In this document: positions 40,564 through 52,346 of the stretch, one piece after another
Layout of the letters: the number at the start of each line of letters is the position of its first letter
Numbering within the stretch: position 1 is the first letter of the stretch
Assembly: GCF_018139485.1 (NCBI RefSeq)
Contig: NZ_JAGSNF010000015.1
Span: 1 to 64,000, forward strand
Direction: 5' to 3'
Source: Phycicoccus avicenniae
Lineage (GTDB): Bacteria; Actinomycetota; Actinomycetes; Actinomycetales; Dermatophilaceae
DNA length: 64,000 nucleotides
Made by a program: the position numbers and the translations under genes
Notes under the pieces: generated by a model
Database searches by the model: none
Seen by the model: the letters and a program-made list of their open reading frames with translations, nothing else
Told to the model about the DNA's origin: nothing

Positions 40564-40635
40564 GCCCCCGTAGCTCAGGGGATAGAGCACCGCCCTCCGG
40601 AGGCGGGAGCGCAGGTTCGAATCCTGCCGGGGGCA
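40564..40635 (+). tRNA. tRNA-Arg (anticodon CCG)
   Basis: A full cloverleaf is visible: acceptor arms GCCCCCG and CGGGGGC with discriminator A, D-arm GCTCAGGGGATAGAGC, anticodon stem CCGCC/GGCGG with loop CTCCGGA (anticodon CCG, reading CGG), and T-arm GCAGG-TTCGAAT-CCTGC. CCA is not encoded. TTGCAT and TAACCT upstream (40489-40494 and 40514-40519) may be its promoter. A lower-GC island begins right after it, so its 3' end may have served as an integration site. Confidence 0.96.
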
Positions 40636-40643
40636 CGTTCCGA

Positions 40644-40687
40644 AAGGGCCCGGTCCATCGCGCGAAGCGCGTGCGGACCGGGCCCTT
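40644..40687 (+). terminator. tRNA-Arg terminator
   Basis: A 13-bp perfect stem (AAGGGCCCGGTCC and GGACCGGGCCCTT) starts 8 bp after the tRNA. The 18-base loop itself contains the small dyad CGCGCGAAGCGCG. TTCATCACG follows. Confidence 0.85.
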
Positions 40688-41306
40688 CATCACGTGCGAC
40701 CGGCAGAAGTATCAGGCGCCTCGAACGGAGTGAGAGCGCCGACGGGCGTGTCCTGCCAGGAAGCGGTACGAGGTCGACATACTGGTCGAAGGTCATCGAC
40801 TGATTTTCACGAATGCCCGTAGCTGCCTGCGCAACGCACGTCGCGGGGAGACAGGCCTCGTTGGCGTGCATTTCGGTTTTACGCCGATCATCCCCAATGA
40901 GGTGTCCCTAGACCTACTTGGACGCACGCGGGTGTGGCGGTGCAGCATCCGACACGCATCGCTCTCCAACTAACGAGAGAGCATTCCTCTCGCACCCCTG
41001 ACTCCTGAGCCCCCGACGTTCACGGTCAAGCTGTACTGGCCCTGAGAAGTGCTCTCCGCTAGTCGAGTTCTTTTCCGCAGGACAGTGATCGACTATCGAG
41101 CTCAATCATCGGCGCTGCGCTCCGGTAGCGCAGGCATTGGTCGGCCACTCCACCCATCACGCACTCGCGCCTTCGTGGCGCTGCGGGCGCGAGAGGGATG
41201 AGCCATGCGGCGCCAACGGCGGTGGTCTTCTACCACCTCGGATGCTTCACCGTTGCAGGGCCCTCCCGGTCGTCCAGCGGCACTCGAGGGCAGGCATACT
41301 AGGCAC
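40688..41306. other. Island left flank, no gene recognised
   Basis: These 619 bp between the tRNA terminator and the methylase start have clearly lower GC than the core genome, and the short frames on both strands have no coding bias. I find no integrase or phage remnant I can name. Short inverted elements are present (for example CTCTC...GAGAG around 40970-40995). This is best seen as acquired or decayed DNA beside the tRNA. Confidence 0.5.
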
Positions 41307-42896
41307 ATGGCGTTGAGCGGACCAGAGCACCTCAAGGTTCGGCTACCAGTAATCGACGCGCTCAAAACGCTTGGCTGGGAAGACGGGCAGCTGCAGTGGC
41401 GGCCAGAGTGGCGTGTCCCCCAGTCTCCCAACGAGGCGGCGAAGCGCGAGGGGGGGCGCTCGTTCTCACACTGGCCGGTGGATCTCGTGGTATTCAAAGA
41501 CCCCGAGATGCCCGCCGACTGGCAGAACGTGGTCGGGCTGTTCGAGTTCAAGAAGCCCACACTCAACGAGGGTGTATCGCAGCTCGAGATCTACCTGGCC
41601 CGCGAACCGCGGGCGCGATTCGGCGTCTGGACCAACGGCACTAAGTCCGCCACGGTCTACAAGCTGCCAGACGGCACCTTCAAGACTGTCAAGCGCAACG
41701 ATCTTCGCCTCCCAACCGCGTCCGACGATTTCGAACGAGCTACCAGCAAGGCGCTCACGTTCGCCGACCTCTCGACGCCCTCCGAGCGCGAACTAAAAAT
41801 GTCGTTCCAAGCACTGCTGGACGCTGTTGTCGCGCGTGACTCCATCGTTACCCGGTCGGAGAATCAGCTCGACCAGTTGTGCAATATGCTGTTGCTGAAA
41901 CTTGAGTCGGACATCACTGCCTCTTACGTCAAGACGAAACCGGTCATGTTCCAACTTGGCAAGACCGAGAATGAAACCGGCACGAAGATCCGCGAAGAGT
42001 TCGACCAGATGGTGAACCAGCGGGAAGAGGTGTTCCGCGAAGAGCAGTCACCTCAGCTGCTCTTGGACGATCACACGATCAAGGAGATCGTCTTCGCCTG
42101 GTCGGGATGGAACCTGGTCGGCGTCGGGGCGGAAGCTGTGTCCTCAGCTTTTCAGGTGTTCAGGCGCGCCAATCTCAAAGCGGGTGAAGGTCAGTACTTC
42201 ACGCCCGCTCGCGTCGTCGAGGCGGCGGTACGCGTGATGGACATTCAACCGACGGACAAGATCATCGACCCTGCTTGCGGGACTGGAGGCTTTCTCATCG
42301 AGGCGTTCCGCGACATAAACGAACGAATTGGCAACGAAGCAGCAGTCACCAAGTGGGCGAACCGGCAAGTCTTCGGAGTCGATAAGGACTCCATTAACGT
42401 CAAGCTCGCCCGCGCGATGATGCTCGTTCTCGGTGACGGCTCCACGCACATACACATCGGCGACTCACTACGTGAGGACCGCTGGTCATCTGATTATCCG
42501 TACCTCTCACCAGCGCTCCGAGACGGTGCCTTCACGGTGGTGCTCACGAACCCGCCCTTCGGTCGGCGCCTGAGGTTGTCCGCTCGCGAGTGCGAGCTGA
42601 ACCACTACTCAATCTCTTGGGCAGCGGGCAAGGAGCAGCGGTATGTCGACCTGGAGCTGGGGCTCGTGTTTCTCGAGCGGTCCTACAGACTGCTCGCGCC
42701 CGGGGGCAGGGTCGGAATCATCCTGCCTGAGACCTACTTCTTCTCGCCAACCTACGCATGGCTTCACGAGTGGATGCAATCTCGCTTCATCGTGCGCGGC
42801 CTGGTTAACGTCCCGATGGAGGCGTTCCAGGGGTTTTGCCGAGCCAAGACGAACCTCTACATCTTCGAGAAGAAGACCACAAGAAGGAGAGCCTGA
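41307..42896 (+). CDS. Restriction-modification protein: HsdR_N-like nuclease domain plus N6-adenine DNA methylase
   Basis: A 529-residue protein. Residues 1-130 resemble the HsdR N-terminal nuclease domain: D59 in PVDLVVF and E80-x-K82 in GLFEFKKP fit a PD-(D/E)xK site, followed by SQLEIYLAREPRARFGVWTNG. Residues about 280-525 are a gamma-class N6-adenine methylase with motif I D321-PACGTGGF and motif IV N415-PPF. Nuclease plus methylase in one chain without a helicase motor is the design of type IIG/IIB enzymes such as BcgI A. Base composition is foreign. Translation ends at TGA 42894-42896, yet the missing methylase C-terminus continues in the same frame in the next gene, so this may be one interrupted gene. 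Confidence 0.85.
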   Translation: MALSGPEHLKVRLPVIDALKTLGWEDGQLQWRPEWRVPQSPNEAAKREGGRSFSHWPVDLVVFKDPEMPADWQNVVGLFEFKKPTLNEGVSQLEIYLAREPRARFGVWTNGTKSATVYKLPDGTFKTVKRNDLRLPTASDDFERATSKALTFADLSTPSERELKMSFQALLDAVVARDSIVTRSENQLDQLCNMLLLKLESDITASYVKTKPVMFQLGKTENETGTKIREEFDQMVNQREEVFREEQSPQLLLDDHTIKEIVFAWSGWNLVGVGAEAVSSAFQVFRRANLKAGEGQYFTPARVVEAAVRVMDIQPTDKIIDPACGTGGFLIEAFRDINERIGNEAAVTKWANRQVFGVDKDSINVKLARAMMLVLGDGSTHIHIGDSLREDRWSSDYPYLSPALRDGAFTVVLTNPPFGRRLRLSARECELNHYSISWAAGKEQRYVDLELGLVFLERSYRLLAPGGRVGIILPETYFFSPTYAWLHEWMQSRFIVRGLVNVPMEAFQGFCRAKTNLYIFEKKTTRRRA

Positions 42897-42899
42897 TCC

Positions 42900-43823
42900 G
42901 TGGTGCACAAGCCCGCATGGTTCAAGGATGATCAGATCTTCGTCTCGTTCGCGGAGACCGTGGGCATCAATAAGGATGGGCTCGACCTCTTTGTCATAGA
43001 CCCGATTACTGGTGCTCGCACATCGACGATCGACGATCGGGTGAGCGCGGACGTCGATGCGTTGCTCGAGGGCGAGCTTGGGCCAACGTCTCGTTGGGTC
43101 CCAACGCGAGAGTTCCCGGTTGCAGTGCCGGCGTACTACGACGACCGGCACACAGCGGCACTTGACGACCTACTGGCCGAGCCTGCGTTCACCACTTTCA
43201 CTTCGCGCAGCCTTGGTGAGCTTATCAGGGATGGCAGCATCGAGCGCCGGGCTGGCCACGGATCGCCTTCGGCGGACATGAGGAACAGCAACGTTCCCTA
43301 CATCAAGGTCTCTGATATTCGAGCGGGCCAAATAAACATCAACCCGTCCAATCTCGTCCCGGAAGTTGTTGCGAAGCGCTTCTGGCGTGGAGGCGACTCG
43401 GGTATTCGGCCATTCGATCTAATCACCCCCATTCGCTCCAGCAAGAATATTGGCGAGTTTGCCGTAATTATGCCAGGGCAGGAGCGGATAGTTCTCACAA
43501 AAGAAGTCCTGATCCTTCGAGCAACAGCGGACGCAATCGCGGACAACTTCTACCTGCTCTGGGCTCTATCCCTGAAGGTCGTTCGCGACCAGTGGCGACG
43601 GGTGGTCTTCATGCAGACCAACCGTGAGGACGTGGGCGAAAGATTTCTCGAGATCCGCATCCCGTGGCCCCACGAGGAGAAGATTGGCACCCGCGTCTCG
43701 GCAGACTTCCGGGAGTATTACCAGGGCGTCGAAGCACTTCGATCGCGATTTGTCGGGTCGCTCGAGAGAGGCGGACTGCATCACGTTTTCTTGGGGCAAG
43801 CCCTGGATTCGCCTGACGAATAG
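42900..43823 (+). CDS. Methylase C-terminus plus single-TRD specificity (S-like) domain
   Basis: A 307-residue protein starting at GTG 42900, one codon beyond the upstream TGA and in the same reading frame. Residues about 8-60 (DDQIFVSFAETVGINKDGLDLFVID, then TIDDRVSADV) resemble the end of N6-methylase proteins, not the start of an S subunit. The rest is one target-recognition domain with an S-subunit-like spacer (RSLGELIRDGS, VPYIKVSDIRAGQI, FDLITPIR, FLEIRIPWPHEEKIGTRVSADFREYYQGVEALR). AAGGAG lies 10 bp before the GTG, so separate translation is possible. It should give DNA sequence specificity to the nuclease-methylase. Confidence 0.8.
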   Translation: MVHKPAWFKDDQIFVSFAETVGINKDGLDLFVIDPITGARTSTIDDRVSADVDALLEGELGPTSRWVPTREFPVAVPAYYDDRHTAALDDLLAEPAFTTFTSRSLGELIRDGSIERRAGHGSPSADMRNSNVPYIKVSDIRAGQININPSNLVPEVVAKRFWRGGDSGIRPFDLITPIRSSKNIGEFAVIMPGQERIVLTKEVLILRATADAIADNFYLLWALSLKVVRDQWRRVVFMQTNREDVGERFLEIRIPWPHEEKIGTRVSADFREYYQGVEALRSRFVGSLERGGLHHVFLGQALDSPDE

Positions 43824-44078
43824 GCAGAGGGATGTGGTCGCGGCTGTCTACGTAGACTTCGCGTGATGCCGCCCAGCCTTGGCGAGTGGTCATGCCCGGC
43901 CCCTCGTCGTGCAACATCCGTGCAATAAGCGGGTCACGAAGGTCCTTCTGAATCCGTCTTTGTCCACCGCGGATTACGCTGTCCTGGAATGCTACTCGCG
44001 AGACTGTGAGCACACCATAAGCGCCTGCGACACGCCGGGTCAGGGAGTTCGAATGCTGTCTTGCGTGGACGAGTCGTT
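43824..44078. other. Island right flank with tRNA-like T-arm sequence
   Basis: This 255-bp non-coding stretch is still of low GC. At 44047-44058, GTTCGAATGCTG matches 11 of 12 bases of the T-arm of the tRNA-Arg at the island's left end (GTTCGAATCCTG). Such a partial copy is what an old attachment site can look like, though 12 bases is short. A 74-codon frame (43879-44103) runs antisense over the end of the next gene and is not credible. Confidence 0.4.
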
Positions 44079-44702
44079 CTACTCTCGCTGGCTCACCGCG
44101 TAGGTCAGGTGGGTCGTACGGGGAGACGTCTGGGCGTGGACCTGCTCCGGCGCCACTCGCTCACTATCAACGCCGTCGAACAGCCGGACGCCTGCACCGA
44201 AGATCACGGGCGACACCGACACCGTGAGCTCGTCGAGCAAGCCGGCGTTCAAATACTGCTGGATGGTCTCGGCCCCACCGGACACCCGTACGTCCAGGTC
44301 GTCGGCCGCCTCGCGCGCCTGGTCCAGCGCAGACTCGATGCCGTCGGTGACGAAGTGGAAGGTCGTCCCGCCGGCACGCACCCACGGCTCGCGCTCGCGG
44401 TGCGTGAGAACGAAGACCGGCGAGCGGAACGGCGGCTCCTCGGGCCACATCGCCTCCCCCGCGTCGATCATCCGCCGCCCCATGATGTTGGCGCCGGTCC
44501 GCTCGCACGTCGCGCGGACGAGGTCGTCGTCCTGGCCAGTTTCACCGCCGGCGCCCATCGAGAGCCGCTCCCGGAACGTCCGCGTCGGGAAGACCCACGC
44601 CTGCAGCTCCATCCACTGCCGGCCCATGAGCTCGCCCGCGGACCCCGGCGCGACGTACCCGTCGAGCGACATCGAGACGCTCGCGAACACCGTGCCGGCC
44701 AT
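44079..44702 (-). CDS. Dihydrofolate reductase family protein (RibD C-terminal domain)
   Basis: A 207-residue protein with the RibD-C/DHFR-like fold. VFASVSMSLDGYVA is the first strand and helix, GANIMGRRMIDAGE the NADP contact region, DVRVSGGAETIQQYLNAGLLDELTVSVSPVIFGAGVRLFDG the conserved C-terminal half. These proteins are NADPH-dependent reductases of mostly unknown substrate. Its ATG shares one base with the stop of the SRPBCC gene (TGATG). It is the last gene of an ArsR-controlled three-gene operon. Confidence 0.88.
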   Translation of the reverse strand: MAGTVFASVSMSLDGYVAPGSAGELMGRQWMELQAWVFPTRTFRERLSMGAGGETGQDDDLVRATCERTGANIMGRRMIDAGEAMWPEEPPFRSPVFVLTHREREPWVRAGGTTFHFVTDGIESALDQAREAADDLDVRVSGGAETIQQYLNAGLLDELTVSVSPVIFGAGVRLFDGVDSERVAPEQVHAQTSPRTTHLTYAVSQRE

Positions 44703-45205
44703 CAGCCCGCCCCTTCATCGGCCATGCCCGTGACGTAGTCGGCGAGGTTGCCGAGCGTCTGCCGCCCACCCTCGACCGCACCGAACTGATCGACCGCCCG
44801 GTCACGCAGCGCCTTCGTCGTAAACACCGTGTGCAGCTCGACCTGGGTCGAGTCACCGACCTCCTCGAAGGTCAGCACGGACTCGAACGCGTCCGGGTCG
44901 TCCGCCCGCTCCCCGTGCAGCATCGCGATCCGCGACGGCGGGTCGATCGCCGTCCACCTGATCCACTCCGGGTAGTCGGTCCCGTCCGGACCGTGCATGA
45001 CGAACTCCCACACCCCGCCGACGCGGAACTCGAAGGCGGCGGTCGTCGTCGTGAACCCGTCCGGCCCCCACCACCGCGACAGGTGTCGCACCGCCGTGAA
45101 CGCCTCGAAGACCGCCTCACGCCGTGCGGCGACGAGTCGTGAGACGACGACCTCCCGGTCCGCCGTCTTTGTCGACGCCGCGTCCTGACCACCTGTACTG
45201 CTCAT
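44702..45205 (-). CDS. SRPBCC/AHSA1 family protein
   Basis: A 167-residue START-like hydrophobic-pocket protein of the AHSA1 group. VVVSRLVAARREAVFEAFTAVRHLSRWWGPDGFTTTTAAFEFRVGGVWEFVMHGPDG is the signature N-terminal half. The pocket-closing helix lies at the C-terminus (GGRQTLGNLADYVT). ATG 45205 overlaps the ArsR stop (ATGA). ArsR-AHSA1 pairs are common, and the ligand is generally unknown. Confidence 0.88.
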   Translation of the reverse strand: MSSTGGQDAASTKTADREVVVSRLVAARREAVFEAFTAVRHLSRWWGPDGFTTTTAAFEFRVGGVWEFVMHGPDGTDYPEWIRWTAIDPPSRIAMLHGERADDPDAFESVLTFEEVGDSTQVELHTVFTTKALRDRAVDQFGAVEGGRQTLGNLADYVTGMADEGAG

Positions 45206-45552
45206 CGCTGCTCCTCCTCGTCGTGTCCGGCCTCGAGCTCCTGCGCGTACGCCTCGAGCCGGTCGAACGCCCCGTTCCAGAACTCCTCGAAGCCCCCGGT
45301 CCACTCGTGCACCGGTCGCAGCCCGTCGGCCTCGAGCCCGTAGAGCCGCCGGCGCCCCACCTGCCGGTCCCGCACGAGCCCGACGTCACGCAGCACCCGC
45401 AGGTGCTTCGACGCCCCCGGCTGCGACATCCCCAGCTCGCGGGCGACCTCGGTGACGGGCCACTCCCCCGACCGCAGCAGCACGAGGATGTCGCGGCGCT
45501 GCGGCTCCGCGATCGCGTTGAAGACGTCCGACGTCGTCGCTGCACGGGCCAT
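45202..45552 (-). CDS. ArsR/SmtB family transcriptional regulator
   Basis: A 116-residue winged-helix repressor. VFNAIAEPQRRDILVLL, VTEVARELGMSQPGASKHLRVLRDVGLV (recognition helix) and VGRRRLYGL (wing) are the family pattern. The metal-binding ELCVCDL motif is absent, so it belongs to the non-metal sensing subgroup that precedes AHSA1 genes. ATG 45552 is chosen over the ATG at 45579 because a strong promoter with a dyad operator covers 45559-45586, which would otherwise lie in the coding region. Confidence 0.88.
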   Translation of the reverse strand: MARAATTSDVFNAIAEPQRRDILVLLRSGEWPVTEVARELGMSQPGASKHLRVLRDVGLVRDRQVGRRRLYGLEADGLRPVHEWTGGFEEFWNGAFDRLEAYAQELEAGHDEEEQR

Positions 45553-45558
45553 GCGGAC

Positions 45559-45586
45559 AACATATACCGATATCGGCATGTGTCAA
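45559..45586 (-). promoter_or_regulatory. ArsR-operon promoter and operator, probably leaderless
   Basis: Read leftward: TTGACA (45586-45581), 16-bp spacer, TATGTT (45564-45559), then the regulator's ATG at 45552, only 6 bases beyond the -10 box. A 24-bp imperfect dyad (45560-45583; half-sites ACATATACCGAT and ATCGGCATGTGT, 10 of 12 symmetric) fills the space between the boxes. The layout fits autorepression by the ArsR protein and a leaderless transcript. Confidence 0.75.
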
Positions 45587-45638
45587 CTGAGCGGGCGCGC
45601 CTCCAATCGCCGACGATCGACGTCGCAGGCTCACGGCG

Positions 45639-46139
45639 ATGCCGGATGATGCAGTCGTGAACCGGTCCGATGCGGTAGACGTCCTCGTCGACGCCGCCGC
45701 GCTCTGCGAGCTGGACAGCCCGCACACCGTCGACGCCGTCGTGGCCGCGGCCGCCGAGGCCATCGCCGCCGGCGTCGACTCCCCCGACCTCGGAGAGCTG
45801 GCCGGCGCCTCGCCGTCAGAGGGCTACGGCGCACTGCGGCCTCTCGTCAGCGACGTGCTGATCGGCCTGCGCCGCCCCCTCCCCTCCGACCCCGGCGACC
45901 TCCAGGTCGCCGCGGCCAGGGCCATGTGCCGTCGGTTGGTGACCGGGACCATCACTCCACGCGAGCTCACTCGATGGGCCCACTCCGCCGCCGGCCACGA
46001 CGGGGCCGAAAATCTGCAGCCGCTCGTCCTCGCGGACGACGAGTACGACGACGCCGACGAGCTCGCCTCATCGACGGCCGACATCGACGAGAAGGTCCGC
46101 GAGGAGGCTGCCGCCCTCCTCACGTCACCCAGCGGGTGA
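45639..46139 (+). CDS. Hypothetical protein
   Basis: A 166-residue, Ala- and Asp-rich protein, probably all-helical and cytoplasmic, with no motif I recognise. The middle (ARAMCRRLVTGTITPRELTRWAHSAAGHDG) looks like a small folded helical unit; the C-terminus is acidic (ADDEYDDADELASSTADIDEKVREEA). This resembles small immunity-like or NTF-like actinobacterial hypotheticals, but that is only an impression. A GTG at 45658 is an alternative start. Confidence 0.6.
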   Translation: MPDDAVVNRSDAVDVLVDAAALCELDSPHTVDAVVAAAAEAIAAGVDSPDLGELAGASPSEGYGALRPLVSDVLIGLRRPLPSDPGDLQVAAARAMCRRLVTGTITPRELTRWAHSAAGHDGAENLQPLVLADDEYDDADELASSTADIDEKVREEAAALLTSPSG

Positions 46140-46254
46140 TGCCTCCCCGAGCGCGGCAATGCCGGGATGCCCCCTTCACGGCAGGCCCGGTTCGGAGTGA
46201 CAGCGCAGGCCGGGCGGCCGCATAATCAGGCACCGCTGAGAGGCAGGAGAGGCC

Positions 46255-47226
46255 GTGGCGCTCGACAGTCGCACCGTCACCACGCTCGCCGTCGTCGTCG
46301 CGGCCCTGGCTGCCGCCGTCTCCGCGCCCGTCCTGTCCGGGGACACGACCGACCCCCCAGCGGTAAGCGCGCCCGCCACCGCGGCCGACGACGAGACCAC
46401 CAGCGCTCCGCCCGAGGTCTCGCCCTTCGCCCAGGACGAGGTCGTCTTCCGGCACACGCCCTCCTGGGGCGCCCTCCTGCTCGGCCGGTCCGACGACGTC
46501 AGCGCGCGAGGGCTCTGGCGCGCGGGGTGCGACGACGCCGGCGGCGATGAGCTCGTCGCCGTCCACCGCAGCGCCCGCACCGCCGTCAAGACCGTGGTGC
46601 CCGAGACGTCGGACACGACGGAAGGCCTCTACCCGTGCCCCGTCACGCTGACCATCCCCGCGACCGTCGGCGACTCCCCCGGCGGCTGGCTCGTCGCCGC
46701 CCGCGACGGCACCCCGGCCGTCGGGGCGGACGTCACCGAGTCCCTCACCGCGTTCCGCATCGCCCGTGTCATGGGCCCGGATGCCTACGGCCTCCTTGCC
46801 CTCTCGGCCGCCGTCGTGGCGCTCGTCGCCGCCGGGATCGGCAGCCGCAGGAGACGGCGGCGGACGGCGTGGCCCAGCGTGGCGAACGCGCCGGTGGTGT
46901 CGGCCGTCCTCGGCGCCCTCACCGCCGTCTCGGCGGGGACCTTCGCCTTCTCGGGCCTCGCCCCGGGCCTCGACCTCGGTGGCGTGCTGGTGCTCGGCCT
47001 CGTCGGGGCCTTGCTCGTCGCCGTCGGCCAGGCGATGAGCACGACGGCGCGCAAGGTCGGCGGTGCGGTGTCCGTCATCGGGATGGCCGTCATCGCGCTC
47101 CTGCTGCCCCTCGTCCTGCTCCACGCGGCGACGGTCGGGTCCCTCGCGTGGCTCGCGTGGCTCCTCGTCGTCGCCCTCCTGGGCATCGCGGTCGGCCTCG
47201 GACCCGACGCCGAGCCGGCCGCGTGA
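46255..47226 (+). CDS. Membrane protein of unknown function
   Basis: A 323-residue protein starting at GTG 46255 after AGGAGAGGCC. Residues 8-28 form an N-terminal helix or signal anchor. Residues about 30-175 are extracellular, with two Cys (GCDDAGG and YPCPVT) that may form a disulfide. Helices follow at about 178-200, 215-235, 240-260, 270-290 and 295-312. The RRRRRR stretch after the first of these fixes that loop in the cytoplasm. No family is recognised. It is convergent with the YihY gene with only a 6-bp gap. Confidence 0.65.
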   Translation: MALDSRTVTTLAVVVAALAAAVSAPVLSGDTTDPPAVSAPATAADDETTSAPPEVSPFAQDEVVFRHTPSWGALLLGRSDDVSARGLWRAGCDDAGGDELVAVHRSARTAVKTVVPETSDTTEGLYPCPVTLTIPATVGDSPGGWLVAARDGTPAVGADVTESLTAFRIARVMGPDAYGLLALSAAVVALVAAGIGSRRRRRRTAWPSVANAPVVSAVLGALTAVSAGTFAFSGLAPGLDLGGVLVLGLVGALLVAVGQAMSTTARKVGGAVSVIGMAVIALLLPLVLLHAATVGSLAWLAWLLVVALLGIAVGLGPDAEPAA

Positions 47227-47232
47227 CGCCGC

Positions 47233-48318
47233 TCAGTCCGTCGACGACTCCTGCGACCGGCCGCGGCTGAGCCGCAGCCGCCGTCCGCGCTCGACGTCGT
47301 CCTGACGCTTCTCGGCCGCCTTGTCGATGCCGTGGTCGTCCCGCGGCGGAAGTTGGATGGACTCCTCCGCGGCGATGCCGGCCTGCAGCTCACGGCTGCG
47401 CTCCAGCTCCGCGTCGAGCTCGGCGCCGAACAGCAGCGCCAAGTTGGTGATCCACAGCCACAGCAGGAAGACGATGACACCGGCCAACGAGCCGTACGTC
47501 CTGTCGTAGCTGGAGAAGTTCGCGACATAGAACCCGAAGGCCGCGGACGCGAGCACCCAGACGACGATCGCGAAAACCGCCCCGACGCTGATCCACCGGA
47601 ACTTCGGCTGCTTGACGTTCGGGGTGGCCCAGTACAGCAGCGCGACGACGAGGACCACTACGAGCAGGAGCACCGGCCACTTCGCGATGCTCCACACCGT
47701 GACGACGGTCGAGCCGAGACCGACGGCGTCCCCGACGGCCTGCGCGGCCGGACCGGTGAGCACGAGTGCCACGGCGACGAGCGCCACGAGGACGACGAGC
47801 ACGAGCGTCACGACGAGCATGACCGGCCGCAGCTTCCAGAACGGCCGGCCCTCCTCGACCTCGTAGACGTCGTTGAGCGCCCGGCCGAACGAGGTCACGT
47901 ACCCCGAGGCGGACCACAGGGCCGCGGCGAGGCCGGCGACGAAGGCGAAGCCCGCGGCCGGCGCCTCGCTCAGCGCCATGAGCGTCGGTTCGAGGGTGTC
48001 GGCGACCGAGCCCGCCCCGACGTCGGACAGGATCCCGGTGAGGGTCTGCACCGTGCTCCGCCCCTGGCCGACGAGCCCGACGAGCGACAACAGGGCGATG
48101 GCCGCCGGGAACAGCGCGAGCACCCCGTAGTACGTCAGGGCAGCCGCGAGGTCGGTGCACCGGTCGCGGGAGAACTCCCGCATCGTCTTGCGGACGACGT
48201 AGAGCCACGACGGCTTCGTGAGGTCGCCCGGGGAGTCCGGCTTGCCCCCCGCGTCCGGTCGCGGTCGGGCGTCTTCCCTCGGGGGCGCCGCCCGGCCCTC
48301 GCCGGCGGTCGGGGTCAT
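47233..48318 (-). CDS. YihY/virulence factor BrkB family membrane protein
   Basis: A 361-residue membrane protein with six predicted helices and the family pattern (DRCTDLAAALTYYGVLALFPAAIALLSLVG; ALWSASGYVTSFGRALNDVYEVEEGRPFWKLR; GSLAGVIVFLLWLWITNLALLFGAELDAELER). Both tails are charged and likely cytoplasmic. Function is unsettled; related proteins were once called ribonuclease BN in error. ATG 48318 overlaps the DUF3618 stop (ATGA) and follows GGAGGGG, so it is preferred to the upstream GTG. Confidence 0.88.
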   Translation of the reverse strand: MTPTAGEGRAAPPREDARPRPDAGGKPDSPGDLTKPSWLYVVRKTMREFSRDRCTDLAAALTYYGVLALFPAAIALLSLVGLVGQGRSTVQTLTGILSDVGAGSVADTLEPTLMALSEAPAAGFAFVAGLAAALWSASGYVTSFGRALNDVYEVEEGRPFWKLRPVMLVVTLVLVVLVALVAVALVLTGPAAQAVGDAVGLGSTVVTVWSIAKWPVLLLVVVLVVALLYWATPNVKQPKFRWISVGAVFAIVVWVLASAAFGFYVANFSSYDRTYGSLAGVIVFLLWLWITNLALLFGAELDAELERSRELQAGIAAEESIQLPPRDDHGIDKAAEKRQDDVERGRRLRLSRGRSQESSTD

Positions 48319-48623
48319 CGGCCCCTCCGCCACACGAGGACGGCGGCCGTAGCGGCGGCGACCGCGACGACACCGGCCAGCGCCGCGCGGATGGTGGCGC
48401 TCGGCCGGGTGTGGCCGTCATCGGCGACCCCCACCGTCTCCCGCCAGCGGTCCCGCGCCCTGGACCGGACGTCGAGCTTGGCGCCGAGCGCGTCGACGGT
48501 CTCCGCGAGGTCCTGCCGGGTCTCCTCGATGTGGGCCTCGATCCGCTCGGTGTCGGTCCGGGCGTCCGGGCCCGCGGCGTCGGCCGCAGCCTCGGCGTGG
48601 GGATCCTGGGGGGTGTCGCTCAT
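48315..48623 (-). CDS. DUF3618 family protein
   Basis: A 102-residue protein. The conserved block is DTERIEAHIEETRQDLAETVDALGAKLDVRSRARDRWRE, an amphipathic helix typical of DUF3618. One C-terminal membrane helix follows (AALAGVVAVAAATAAVLVW) with a basic end. ATGA overlaps join it to the holin-like gene before and the YihY gene after. Confidence 0.85.
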   Translation of the reverse strand: MSDTPQDPHAEAAADAAGPDARTDTERIEAHIEETRQDLAETVDALGAKLDVRSRARDRWRETVGVADDGHTRPSATIRAALAGVVAVAAATAAVLVWRRGR

Positions 48624-49099
48624 CGCCGTCCCTCCTGTCCCGTCGGGGCGTGCTCGGTGCCGTGGTGGCCGTGGTGACGGACGGCGTCGACGTCGGCCTT
48701 GACGCTCTCGACGCTGTGCTGGACCGGAGGGGTGCTGCGCGCGACCTCCCGCTTGCCGACGAGCGCCGCGACACCGGCCGCGACGAACAGCACGACCGCG
48801 ACGATGAGCGCGGCCAGCCACGCGTCGAGCACGAGCGACAGCGCAAGGATCGCCGCGGCGACGAGGGCCCCCACGCCGTAGAGCGCGACGACCCCGCCGG
48901 TGCCGAAGAGGCCGGCACCCCGTCCGGCGTGCTTGACGGACTCCTGGATCTCGGTCTTGGCGAGCGCGATCTCCGAGCGGACGAGGTCCGACAGGTCGGA
49001 GCTCATCCGGCTCAGCAGCTGCCCGGTCGAGGCCGGCTCCTGCGAGCGGTGCGTGCCGGGAGGCGACGCGGGGTCGCCCGGCCCTGTGGTCCTGCTCAT
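48620..49099 (-). CDS. Phage holin superfamily III-like membrane protein
   Basis: A 159-residue protein of the actinobacterial holin-III group found in the holin-DUF3618-YihY operon. An amphipathic helix (QLLSRMSSDLSDLVRSEIALAKTEIQESVKHAGRG) precedes two membrane helices (about 65-90 and 93-113). The C-terminus is His-rich (RHHGHHGTEH). Despite the family name, these chromosomal copies are not linked to phage genes and probably serve in envelope homeostasis. AGGAGCAC precedes ATG 49099. Confidence 0.8.
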   Translation of the reverse strand: MSRTTGPGDPASPPGTHRSQEPASTGQLLSRMSSDLSDLVRSEIALAKTEIQESVKHAGRGAGLFGTGGVVALYGVGALVAAAILALSLVLDAWLAALIVAVVLFVAAGVAALVGKREVARSTPPVQHSVESVKADVDAVRHHGHHGTEHAPTGQEGRR

Positions 49100-49238
49100 C
49101 GTGTGCTCCTGTCGACGGTGTCGTGCCTTCCCTACCCGCCCCCGGGGTCGGTCACGCCGACGACCCGGGCGCCGGAAGAACCGGGACCGGCCGGGGTGTT
49201 CATCGACTGGACCAACCCCAAGCAACGCCGACCCGTTG

Positions 49239-49255
49239 GATAACGTCGTGTTATC
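49239..49255. promoter_or_regulatory. Palindrome between divergent holin operon and korAB
   Basis: GATAAC-GTCGT-GTTATC is a perfect 6-bp inverted repeat in an AT-rich patch, within the 281-bp divergent intergenic region and 126 bp before korA. It could be an operator for either side. TACGAT at 49311-49316 is a candidate korA -10 box, without a clear -35. Confidence 0.4.
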
Positions 49256-49380
49256 GGAACGTGCATGCCGCGTCGTGGGACGTCGAATGAGGGCATCCTC
49301 ACCGAAGACTTACGATGGAAGACGGCCCCGGCTTCACGTCGCCGCCGCACACCAGCCCCGATCCCCCAGGGAGATCGCCC

Positions 49381-51246
49381 GTGACCAGCAAGACCGCCCA
49401 GACGCTCGACCGTGTCGTCATCCGGTTCGCCGGTGACTCCGGTGACGGGATGCAGCTGACGGGTGACCGCTTCACGTCGGAGACGGCCGCGCTCGGCAAC
49501 GACCTGTCGACGCTGCCGAACTTCCCCGCCGAGATCCGCGCCCCCCAGGGCACGCTGCCCGGCGTCTCGTCCTTCCAGCTGCACTTCGCCGACCACGACG
49601 TCCTCACCCCCGGCGACGCCCCGGACGTCCTCGTCGCGATGAACCCGGCCGCGCTCAAGGCGAACATCGGCGACGTCCCGCGCGGCGCGACCGTCATCGT
49701 CAACACCGACGAGTTCACCAAGCGCAACCTCGGCAAGGTCGGCTACGAGACCTCCCCGCTCGAGGACGGCAGCCTCGAGTCCTGGCACGTCCACCCCGTC
49801 GCCCTCACCTCGATCACCGTCGAGGCGCTCGCCGAGTTCTCCGGGCTCTCCCGCAAGGAGAAGGAGCGCGCGAAGAACATGTTCGCGCTCGGGCTGCTGT
49901 CGTGGATGTACACCCGCCCGACGACCGGCACCGAGCAGTTCCTCAAGTCCAAGTTCGGCGCCCGCCCCGAGATCCTCGAGGCCAACCTCACCGCGCTGCA
50001 CGCGGGCTGGAACTACGGCGAGACGACCGAGGACTTCGCCTCGACGTACGTCGTCGCCCCGGCCCCGATGCCGCCCGGCACGTACCGCAACGTCACCGGC
50101 AACACCGCCCTCGCGCTCGGCCTCGTGTCCGCGTCGCACCGCGCCGGCCGCCCGCTCGTCCTCGGGTCCTACCCGATCACCCCGGCCTCGGACATCCTCC
50201 ACGCGCTGTCGAGCATGAAGCGGCACGGCGTGACGACGATCCAGGCCGAGGACGAGATCGCCGGCGCCGGCATCGCGCTCGGCGCCGCGTACGGCGGCGC
50301 CGTCGGCGTGACGACGACCTCCGGCCCGGGCATCGCGCTCAAGGCCGAGACGATCGGCCTCGCCGTGGCGCTCGAGCTGCCGCTCGTCGTCGTCGACATC
50401 CAGCGCGGCGGCCCCTCGACCGGCCTGCCGACGAAGACCGAGCAGGCCGACCTGCTCCAGGTGATGTACGGCCGCAACGGCGAGTCCCCGCTGCCGGTCA
50501 TCGCCGCGCAGACCCCCGCCGACTGCTTCGACGCCGCGCTCGACGCCGTCCGCATCGCGACGACGTACCGCACCCCGGTCGTCCTGCTCTCCGACGGCTA
50601 CCTCGCGAACGGGTCCGAGCCGTGGTCGGTGCCGTCCGTCGACGACCTGCCGCAGATGCACGTCGACCTCGCCTCCGAGCCGAACATGACGGACGACAAC
50701 GGCGAGCCGGTGTTCCGGCCCTACCTGCGCGACCCCGAGACGCTGGCCCGGCCGTGGGCCGTCCCCGGCACCGCCGGCCTCGAGCACCGCATCGGCGGCA
50801 TCGAGAAGGCCGACGTCACCGGCGACATCAGCTACGACCCGGACAACCACGAGAAGATGGTCCGGCTGCGCCAGGCCAAGGTCGACGGCGTCACCGTCCC
50901 CGACGTCGAGGTCGACGACCCGACGGGCGACGCGCGCATCCTCGTCCTCGGCTGGGGCTCGACGTACGGCCCGATCGCCGCCGCGACCCGCGTCGTGCGC
51001 AACGCCGGCCAGCCCGTCGCCCGCGCCCACGTCCGGCACATCAACCCGTTCCCTGCGAACCTCGGCGACGTCCTGCGCCGCTACGACCGGGTGCTCGTCC
51101 CCGAGATGAACACCGGCCAGCTCGCGATGCTGCTGCGCTCGAAGTACCTCGTCGACGTCCGCTCGCACACCGCGATCCGGGGGCTGCCGTTCACGACGGT
51201 CGAGCTCGCCGGCGCCATCACCACCACGCTGCAGGAGGTCCAGTGA
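49381..51246 (+). CDS. korA: 2-oxoglutarate:ferredoxin oxidoreductase, alpha (gamma-alpha fusion) subunit
   Basis: A 621-residue subunit of a CoA-dependent 2-oxoacid:ferredoxin oxidoreductase. The N-terminal ~190 residues are the gamma domain (VIRFAGDSGDGMQLTGD). From about 215 the alpha pyrimidine-binding domain follows (GNTALALGLVSASHRAGRPLVLGSYPITPASDILH, QAEDEIAGAGIALGAAYGG, TTTSGPGIALKAE). GTG 49381 with AGGGAGA upstream is chosen over ATG 49315, which lacks an SD and would add a low-complexity leader. With KorB it converts 2-oxoglutarate to succinyl-CoA and reduces ferredoxin, bypassing the dehydrogenase complex, as in mycobacteria. Confidence 0.93.
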   Translation: MTSKTAQTLDRVVIRFAGDSGDGMQLTGDRFTSETAALGNDLSTLPNFPAEIRAPQGTLPGVSSFQLHFADHDVLTPGDAPDVLVAMNPAALKANIGDVPRGATVIVNTDEFTKRNLGKVGYETSPLEDGSLESWHVHPVALTSITVEALAEFSGLSRKEKERAKNMFALGLLSWMYTRPTTGTEQFLKSKFGARPEILEANLTALHAGWNYGETTEDFASTYVVAPAPMPPGTYRNVTGNTALALGLVSASHRAGRPLVLGSYPITPASDILHALSSMKRHGVTTIQAEDEIAGAGIALGAAYGGAVGVTTTSGPGIALKAETIGLAVALELPLVVVDIQRGGPSTGLPTKTEQADLLQVMYGRNGESPLPVIAAQTPADCFDAALDAVRIATTYRTPVVLLSDGYLANGSEPWSVPSVDDLPQMHVDLASEPNMTDDNGEPVFRPYLRDPETLARPWAVPGTAGLEHRIGGIEKADVTGDISYDPDNHEKMVRLRQAKVDGVTVPDVEVDDPTGDARILVLGWGSTYGPIAAATRVVRNAGQPVARAHVRHINPFPANLGDVLRRYDRVLVPEMNTGQLAMLLRSKYLVDVRSHTAIRGLPFTTVELAGAITTTLQEVQ

Positions 51247-52346
51247 CCACCACGACCGACCTCGGGATGCCGACGACCGGCACCCCCGACGGCCTCGCCC
51301 ACGTCCCGCACCTGCCGCAGGACGAGCCGAAGCAGACCAAGCGCGACTTCACCTCCGACCAGGAGGTCCGCTGGTGCCCCGGCTGCGGCGACTACGTCAT
51401 CCTCGCCGCCGTCCAGTCCTTCCTGCCCGACCTCGGGCTGCGCCGCGAGAACATCGTCTTCGTCTCCGGCATCGGCTGCTCCTCGCGCTTCCCGTACTAC
51501 CTCGACACGTACGGGATGCACTCGATCCACGGGCGCGCCCCGGCCATCGCCACCGGCCTCGCGACGTCGCGGCCGGACCTGTCGGTGTGGGTCGTCACCG
51601 GTGACGGCGACGCGCTGTCGATCGGTGGCAACCACCTCATCCACGCGCTGCGCCGCAACGTCAACATGACGATCCTGCTCTTCAACAACCAGATCTACGG
51701 GCTGACGAAGGGCCAGTACTCCCCCACGTCCCGCCCCGGCACGGTGACGAAGTCCAGCCCGCTCGGGTCGGTCGACGCCCCGTTCAACCCGGTCTCGCTC
51801 GCGCTCGGTGCCGAGGCGACGTTCGTCGGGCGGGCGATGGAGTCCGACCGCGACGAGCTGAAGTCCGTCCTGCGGGCCGCCGCCGAGCACCGCGGCGCCG
51901 CGCTCGTCGAGATCTACCAGAACTGCCCGATCTTCAACGACGGCGCGTTCGAGGCCCTCAAGGACCGCACCCAGCAGGCCGCCCGCATCGTCCGCCTGCA
52001 CTCCGGCGAGGCCGTCACCGTCGGCACCGAGGAGGACCGCCGCGTCCTCGTCCGCACGACCGGCGGCGGCAGCGAGTTCGTCCCCGAGGCCGAGGTCGGC
52101 GCCCGCGACGTCGTCGTCCACGACGCCCACGCCGACGACCCGTCCGCGGCGTTCGCCCTCTCCCGGCTCGACACCCCGGAGATGTCGCACGTCCCGATGG
52201 GCATCTTCCGGCAGGTCGAGCGGCCGACGTACGACGACCAGGTCCGCGCCCAGGTGGACGCCGCCGTCGACACCGCCGGCGGCCCCGCGACCGACGACGA
52301 CCTCCAGGCGCTGCTGCGCGGCAAGGACACCTGGACCGTCGGCTGA
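51243..52346 (+). CDS. korB: 2-oxoglutarate:ferredoxin oxidoreductase, beta subunit
   Basis: A 367-residue ThDP-binding subunit. WCPGCGDYVIL and GIGCSSRFP carry the cysteines of the [4Fe-4S] cluster. VVTGDGDALSIGGNHLIHALRRNVNMTILLFNNQIYGLTKGQYSPTS is the Mg-ThDP motif (GDG...NN). GTG 51243 overlaps the korA stop by four bases (GTGA). Residues 270-367 are a C-terminal extension usual in the actinobacterial KorB group. Confidence 0.94.
   Translation: MTTTTDLGMPTTGTPDGLAHVPHLPQDEPKQTKRDFTSDQEVRWCPGCGDYVILAAVQSFLPDLGLRRENIVFVSGIGCSSRFPYYLDTYGMHSIHGRAPAIATGLATSRPDLSVWVVTGDGDALSIGGNHLIHALRRNVNMTILLFNNQIYGLTKGQYSPTSRPGTVTKSSPLGSVDAPFNPVSLALGAEATFVGRAMESDRDELKSVLRAAAEHRGAALVEIYQNCPIFNDGAFEALKDRTQQAARIVRLHSGEAVTVGTEEDRRVLVRTTGGGSEFVPEAEVGARDVVVHDAHADDPSAAFALSRLDTPEMSHVPMGIFRQVERPTYDDQVRAQVDAAVDTAGGPATDDDLQALLRGKDTWTVG

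Follow-up and report, generated by a model that had tools for sequence, protein, structure and literature searches.

A probable two-gene restriction-modification operon in Phycicoccus avicenniae whose S subunit is predicted to carry a methylase tail and one recognition domain

Two adjacent genes and the parts they encode

The window, by which we mean the whole 64,000-nucleotide stretch of Phycicoccus avicenniae DNA analysed here, carries two adjacent forward-strand genes, RM and S, whose features are collected in Table 1. The two meet in a single reading frame: after the RM stop one TCC codon precedes the GTG that opens S, and 838 codons, the TGA counted, come before the S stop. An earlier note on this DNA had described this in-frame restart together with an AAGGAG ahead of it; its coordinates are exact, and 10 nt separate the AAGGAG from the GTG. 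The RM start has MALSGPEH in common with the ATG start of the Corynebacterium faecale gene (L030), the frame is also open further upstream to an ATG at 41205, and the RM orthologue in genome G335 (L021) is 72% identical.

Table 1. Features of the operon in window coordinates
Feature	Position	Strand	Remarks
RM subunit gene	41307..42896	+	Nuclease, helical connector and N6-adenine methylase core (Pfam N6_Mtase E 3.8e-28); ATG start, 529-aa frame 41307-42893, stop TGA 42894-42896
Predicted PD-(D/E)xK nuclease region, N-terminal, residues 12-120	41340..41666	+	Conserved residues; HSDR_N_2
Nuclease residues D59, E80, K82	41481-41483, 41544-41546, 41550-41552	+	Also Q92, Y96
Methylase core, residues 276-525	42132..42881	+	DPACGTGGFL 42267-42296, NPPF 42549-42560
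Shine-Dalgarno-like AAGGAG, within RM gene end, ahead of S start	42884..42889	+	
S subunit gene, 307 aa	42900..43823	+	GTG start, stop TAG 43821-43823; separate gene in 35 loci
S residues 1-58, predicted C-terminal segment of the methylase domain	42900..43073	+	Alignment to one-chain and late-split relatives
Predicted recognition-domain core, single, S residues 119-257	43254..43670	+	Mean identity 0.731; PADLOC Specificity_I E 2.1e-4
S C-terminal region, residues 258-307	43671..43820	+	S alignment; putative helix

By sequence, RM joins an N-terminal PD-(D/E)xK nuclease to a gamma-class N6 methylase, which is a feature of Type IIG enzymes. Among 37 near relatives D59 is kept in 36, whereas E80, K82, Q92 and Y96 are kept in all 37, as are N415, P416, P417 and F418 of the methylase. 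The nuclease profile HSDR_N_2 matches the window protein below its cut-off (E 0.033) and the one-chain relative L072 at E 1.3e-12. Among solved chains the best match is RM.BsaXI (8w0p, E 3e-50), which over profile positions 176-525 covers the connector and methylase core and not the nuclease, and no helicase or motor domain was found among the Pfam matches of the window RM and S proteins.

In RM the N6_Mtase match ends at profile position 236 of 311, and in the one-chain L072 it reaches position 295. The family alignment places the VFVSFAETVGINKDG-type sequence on an IFMxxAxxCGHDxRG-type segment that comes after the methylase core in one-chain relatives; this segment lies on the RM chain in 11 distant ‘late-split’ relatives and opens S in the window family. 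Moreover, the family profile runs across the border along the single HsdM chain 7vru_A, and in Pfam the window S searched alone has no N6_Mtase match. We infer that S residues 1-58 complete the methylase domain, and with its tail on S, RM alone should be incomplete. The earlier note had taken some 55 residues at the S start for the end of an N6-methylase, a reading that the extent of the L072 match and the family alignment bear out at about 58.

Behind this tail a single recognition domain had been proposed as well, and weak profile matches combined with homology point the same way. The PADLOC Type I specificity-subunit matches in S are weak (the best, at the E value in Table 1, spans residues 124-258), Methylase_S from Pfam is found in 2 of 25 S proteins of the family below its cut-off (best E 0.025) and at the corresponding place in L072 just under it (E 2.7e-4), and the S alignment alone reaches only E 0.11 against solved structures. 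The S-family profile matches both repeats in the two-domain S proteins of L071, L073, L074 and L078; the 307-residue window S has one such region and not the two of a BcgI-like S. These four loci, from Bacillota and Chloroflexota, are distant and split late; their layout, with an S of two domains and some 500 aa, is BcgI-like. Residues 258-307 of the window S are possibly a dimerisation helix.

A nearly constant recognition domain in a foreign setting

Relatives were gathered with RM only, through a scan of genome contigs (the best 80 of 146 confirmed loci), the genomes of the order and plasmids. In a comparison of 25 S proteins the recognition core was the most conserved region of the system, its mean pairwise identity of 0.731 (minimum 0.59) standing above the methylase core (0.635), nuclease (0.57), methylase tail (0.54), connector (0.45), and the S linker and C-terminus (0.38-0.39). 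The same is seen when pairs of loci, picked by their methylase and not by S, are compared at increasing distance. Across the 595 pairs of 35 family members the least similar methylases (16 pairs) are at identity 0.3-0.4, but no pair has an S identity past residue 60 of less than 0.42, and 0/595 fall below 0.30, a line of our own choosing. In the sister group, with 496 pairs from 32 one-chain members, S identity lies below 0.30 in 184/288 pairs at methylase identity 0.5-0.6, in 41/89 at 0.6-0.7, in 26/85 at 0.7-0.8 and in 0/7 above. At 0.4-0.5 only 2/27 pairs do so (median S identity 0.41), which goes against a simple contrast between family and sister group at that distance, and it is the larger bins that carry the contrast. 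The pair comparison was made without L031, L032, L033, L034, L054, L056, L064, L068, L070, L103 and L116-L118, and its sister group without 11 late-split loci.

The family with this constant domain spans Actinomycetota, Pseudomonadota, Bacteroidota, Thermodesulfobacteriota, an Eremiobacteraeota genome and a viral contig, and a Thermus plasmid copy outside the count keeps the recognition domain too. Apart from the genome of the window, searches within the phylum and the class gave homologues in 2/396 genomes (31-33% identical, distant) and 0/394, too few to enlarge the comparison from there. Judged from these alignments the specificity of the family looks frozen. In enzymes of this kind a single reading domain serves both cutting and marking, and specificity should therefore be free to change, as it does in the sister group. 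The MmeI family has likewise been described as extensively diversified in its specificities, and that of Eco57I as confined by its partner methylase (PMC3874165). We would only tentatively suggest that the target sequence of the family is fixed and held by something other than an arms race, for instance a nuclease whose own sequence preference matches it, or some target feature that stays the same in invading DNA. A constant recognition domain predicts one identical m6A motif in distant carrier bacteria, among them Pedococcus bigeumensis, Dyadobacter beijingensis and Streptomyces hoynatensis.

The base composition of the operon is foreign: GC is 58-60% in 41500-43999, 64-68% in the adjoining bins and 70-77% further out. 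The operon begins 670 bp past a tRNA-Arg (40564-40636), and the stretch from argS to this tRNA is kept at 81-84% in 11/11 congeners searched. Divergence lies beyond 40688, since window positions 40689-52000 had nothing in common with the 11 congeners within the roughly 10 kb fetched; for 43830-46200 there was no match in 10 of the 11 and a 175-bp piece in one. The region 40564-46200 is a strain-specific stretch after the tRNA-Arg. Further on, the 4 congeners in which argS and the counterpart of the gene at 49315 fall on a single contig have them 337-415 kb apart, and a rearrangement border or an assembly join must therefore be nearby. None of the 11 congeners yielded a close homologue (the best match, a partial one, is at E 1e-17), and close copies of the operon are rare in the order: counting the window's own genome there are 4 among 396 genomes, and one of them, G335, is assigned to the same family as the host.

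Around the related operons any one neighbour gene is conserved in at most 2 of 37 loci, ORFs overlapping the operon excluded; neighbour clusters from a first comparison were judged antisense or low-complexity artefacts. A motif-pattern search for a linked second methylase gave 1 candidate ORF in the flanks of the 37 loci, several of which end at contig ends, and this 1896-aa antisense frame was judged spurious. For a linked HsdR, a protein of about 1000 aa, no gene was common to more than 2/37 flanks and no frame of that size was among those listed at 36-50 kb. A separate linked REase gene, as in Type IIH systems, was likewise not found in the flanks of the 37 loci, and the nuclease residues sit on the methylase chain.

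These observations bear on whether the locus might instead be a methylation-based defence or a regulatory methylase, MADS- or BREX-like, in which the nuclease-like residues have another role. We regard this as improbable: conserved partner genes were not found in the flanks, the PD-(D/E)xK residues are conserved, and MAD2, although it is the best NCBIfam match of RM (E 2.2e-51) and although the unusual constancy of the recognition domain would suit such a role, scores 174.9, far under its cut-off of 720.

The border among relatives and the proposed system

Methylase and S are separate genes in at least 35 loci from 34 genomes, L063 and L064 sharing one genome. In 35/35 split loci S begins 3-6 residues ahead of an invariant P-x-W, with ATG in 31 and GTG in 4 (starts were chosen close to the profile start, at most a few residues away, and with preference given to ATG). 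The methylase stop is TGA in 25, TAA in 5 and TAG in 5, and S is in the same frame as the methylase in 10 and in a different one in 25; since chance predicts 1 in 3, the same-frame junction of the window is not unusual. The spacing from stop to start ranges from -4 to +7 nt, at -4 (9 loci), -1 (8), +6 (6), +3 (4), +5 (3), +2 (2) and +1, +4 and +7 (1 each). By a lenient list and with no background control, a Shine-Dalgarno-like word of 4 or 5 letters lies within 20 nt upstream in 28/35 and is absent in 7. Among the closest relatives the Corynebacterium faecale plasmid has TAA plus 3 nt in frame, Pedococcus has overlapping genes in another frame, and Okibacterium an ATGA overlap. Against Pedococcus (L035) dN/dS is 0.22/2.0 for RM, 0.28/3.2 for S and 0.31/1.9 for S residues 1-60, with dS at or near saturation, which suggests from these values that purifying selection acts on S, its methylase tail included.

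Because stop, frame and spacing vary freely in these homologous junctions, they exclude an obligatory readthrough, a recent nonsense mutation and a sequencing error alike, and the description of the locus as a gene interrupted by a single in-frame TGA, as the earlier note was titled, is misleading given that in 35 loci the S start falls at one and the same point of the protein. The stable two-subunit split that it listed as its third reading is what the relatives display. A weaker form of its readthrough proposal, in which some fused R-M-S protein is made besides the two subunits, seems very unlikely: with all three stop types in use and 25/35 junctions out of frame, readthrough is not required by the family, even though the window and 9 other loci share a frame, five (L022, L036-L039) have TGA and two codons before ATG, and one-chain relatives are natural examples of a fused form. 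At the 10 same-frame loci occasional readthrough is possible. We give almost no credence to a recent nonsense mutation or sequencing error at 42894-42896 in one continuous gene, which the in-frame junction with its single TGA and the existence of one-chain relatives might suggest, but which is opposed by the nearest relatives (L035, L030, L022, L036 and others), where the split comes at the identical protein position, by the out-of-frame S genes and by the apparent purifying selection on S.

The methylase frame itself is broken in 2 of the 35 split loci, L056 (2-2056, in-frame stop) and L070 (5953-7663, frame change), and by a frame change in the one-chain Rubneribacter locus L068 (5971-8470); decay, phase variation or sequencing errors may account for these. 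Other one-chain near relatives are from Bacteroidales (L045), Bifidobacterium (L046 and L047), viral contigs (L115 and, partial, L116) and a Thermus plasmid (L031), and at the position of the window border one-chain relatives have a stretch of variable length. In the Thermus thermophilus plasmid (3923-7557) an IS630 lies inside the recognition domain, and the record annotates no methylase gene. The IMG/VR contigs L115 and L116, classed as viral, encode one-chain proteins whose recognition domain is of the kind found in the family. On a plasmid of Aerococcus urinaeequi, roughly 500 bp separate a predicted optrA resistance gene from L033 (2866-5316), another one-chain relative but a distant one.

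On an 82-row tree the early split takes 2 changes, one for a 31-row clade (SH-aLRT 95) and one for Dyadobacter L065, which is sister to the fused L045. The tree was built without L021 and L023 (same genomes as L035 and L069), L064 (same genome as L063), L056, L068 and L070 (broken methylase), L103 (partial), L116-L118 (partial or duplicate) and L034. The methylase tree rejects one common origin for the early split (p-AU 0.0013; a ‘quick’ tree with long branches), which leaves two fissions, or one fission with re-fusions. Since one-chain relatives exist, the single ancestral R-M-S polypeptide of the earlier note is plausible, although unproven, as the tree gives no direction of change.

Taken together, our comparisons make it very probable that 41307-43823 is an intact, self-contained two-gene restriction-modification operon of a Type IIG/IIB-like kind. 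The first gene would give an RM subunit with a PD-(D/E)xK nuclease, a connector and a gamma-class N6-adenine methylase core minus its last segment. The second, probably translated via re-initiation just beyond the stop, would give S, in which the first 58 or so residues complete the methylase and are followed by one recognition domain and the C-terminal region. RM and S would have to assemble for activity, and by analogy to HaeIV or M.AhdI we favour, at about even odds, an assembly of two RM.S pairs on a bipartite, symmetric site; a single pair that reads one continuous, asymmetric site, as MmeI does, we hold to be somewhat less likely. In either case the complex would methylate adenine with SAM and, with no need of ATP, cut unmethylated DNA a fixed distance away. 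Seen as an interrupted gene the locus would be ordinary; as a two-chain restriction-modification variant with one recognition domain it appears little described and of moderate interest.

Comparison with known systems

Among the closest known systems are the Type IIB enzymes BcgI and BsaXI, which also have a nuclease-methylase RM chain and a separate S chain. Their S carries two recognition domains in a 2RM:1S complex (PMC3874165; PMC11997821), whereas the window S has one recognition domain and a methylase tail and the border between RM and S comes earlier than in BcgI-like enzymes; the BcgI-like A and B subunits of the earlier note thus hold for the separate chains and not for the make-up of S. 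HaeIV is described as one R~M~single-TRD chain that cuts on both sides of a symmetric site (PMC3874165). It has, like the window system, one recognition domain per RM, and L045-L047 and L115 share its order of parts, but the window system has two chains. M.AhdI (Type IIH, ‘Type 1 1/2’) combines 2M with 2 single-domain S subunits, its nuclease being a separate protein (PMC3874165; PMC4081073); methylase and single-domain S are again separate chains, and the window differs in having the nuclease-like domain on the methylase chain. MmeI (Type IIL/IIG) has an N-terminal nuclease, a methylase and one shared recognition domain in one chain (PMC3874165; PMC4833311). This order and the single domain serving both activities are as in the window system, which differs from the single-chain, diversified MmeI in its nearly constant recognition domain.

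In Helicobacter pylori a two-gene Type IIG system has a single-TRD S allele that has been explained by a deletion at repeats (PMC3077401). There too an RM gene accompanies a separate one-TRD S gene, but the single TRD is one allele, and in the window family it is the rule. The combination of RM with a one-domain, methylase-completing S is absent from the 17 rows of Table 4 in the 2013 review of Type I enzymes and their relatives (PMC3874165), and literature searches did not turn it up either, which is weak evidence for its being undescribed. For a catalytic domain finished by a second chain there are likenesses outside the adenine methylases and within Type I. M.AquI and M.EcoHK31I, which are not known to have a fused nuclease, share this property with the window system but are cytosine-5 methylases. 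They are two-chain enzymes in which the second chain completes the catalytic domain (PMC3404938). Type IB differs from Type IA/IC in that the hsdM/hsdS border is shifted upstream, with the M tail on S (PMC3510504). Neither the ATP-driven HsdR of Type I systems nor their usual pair of TRDs was found in the window system, and yet the same kind of border shift is seen here; the arrangement in the window thus parallels, inside Type II, the shift of the border between Type IA and Type IB.
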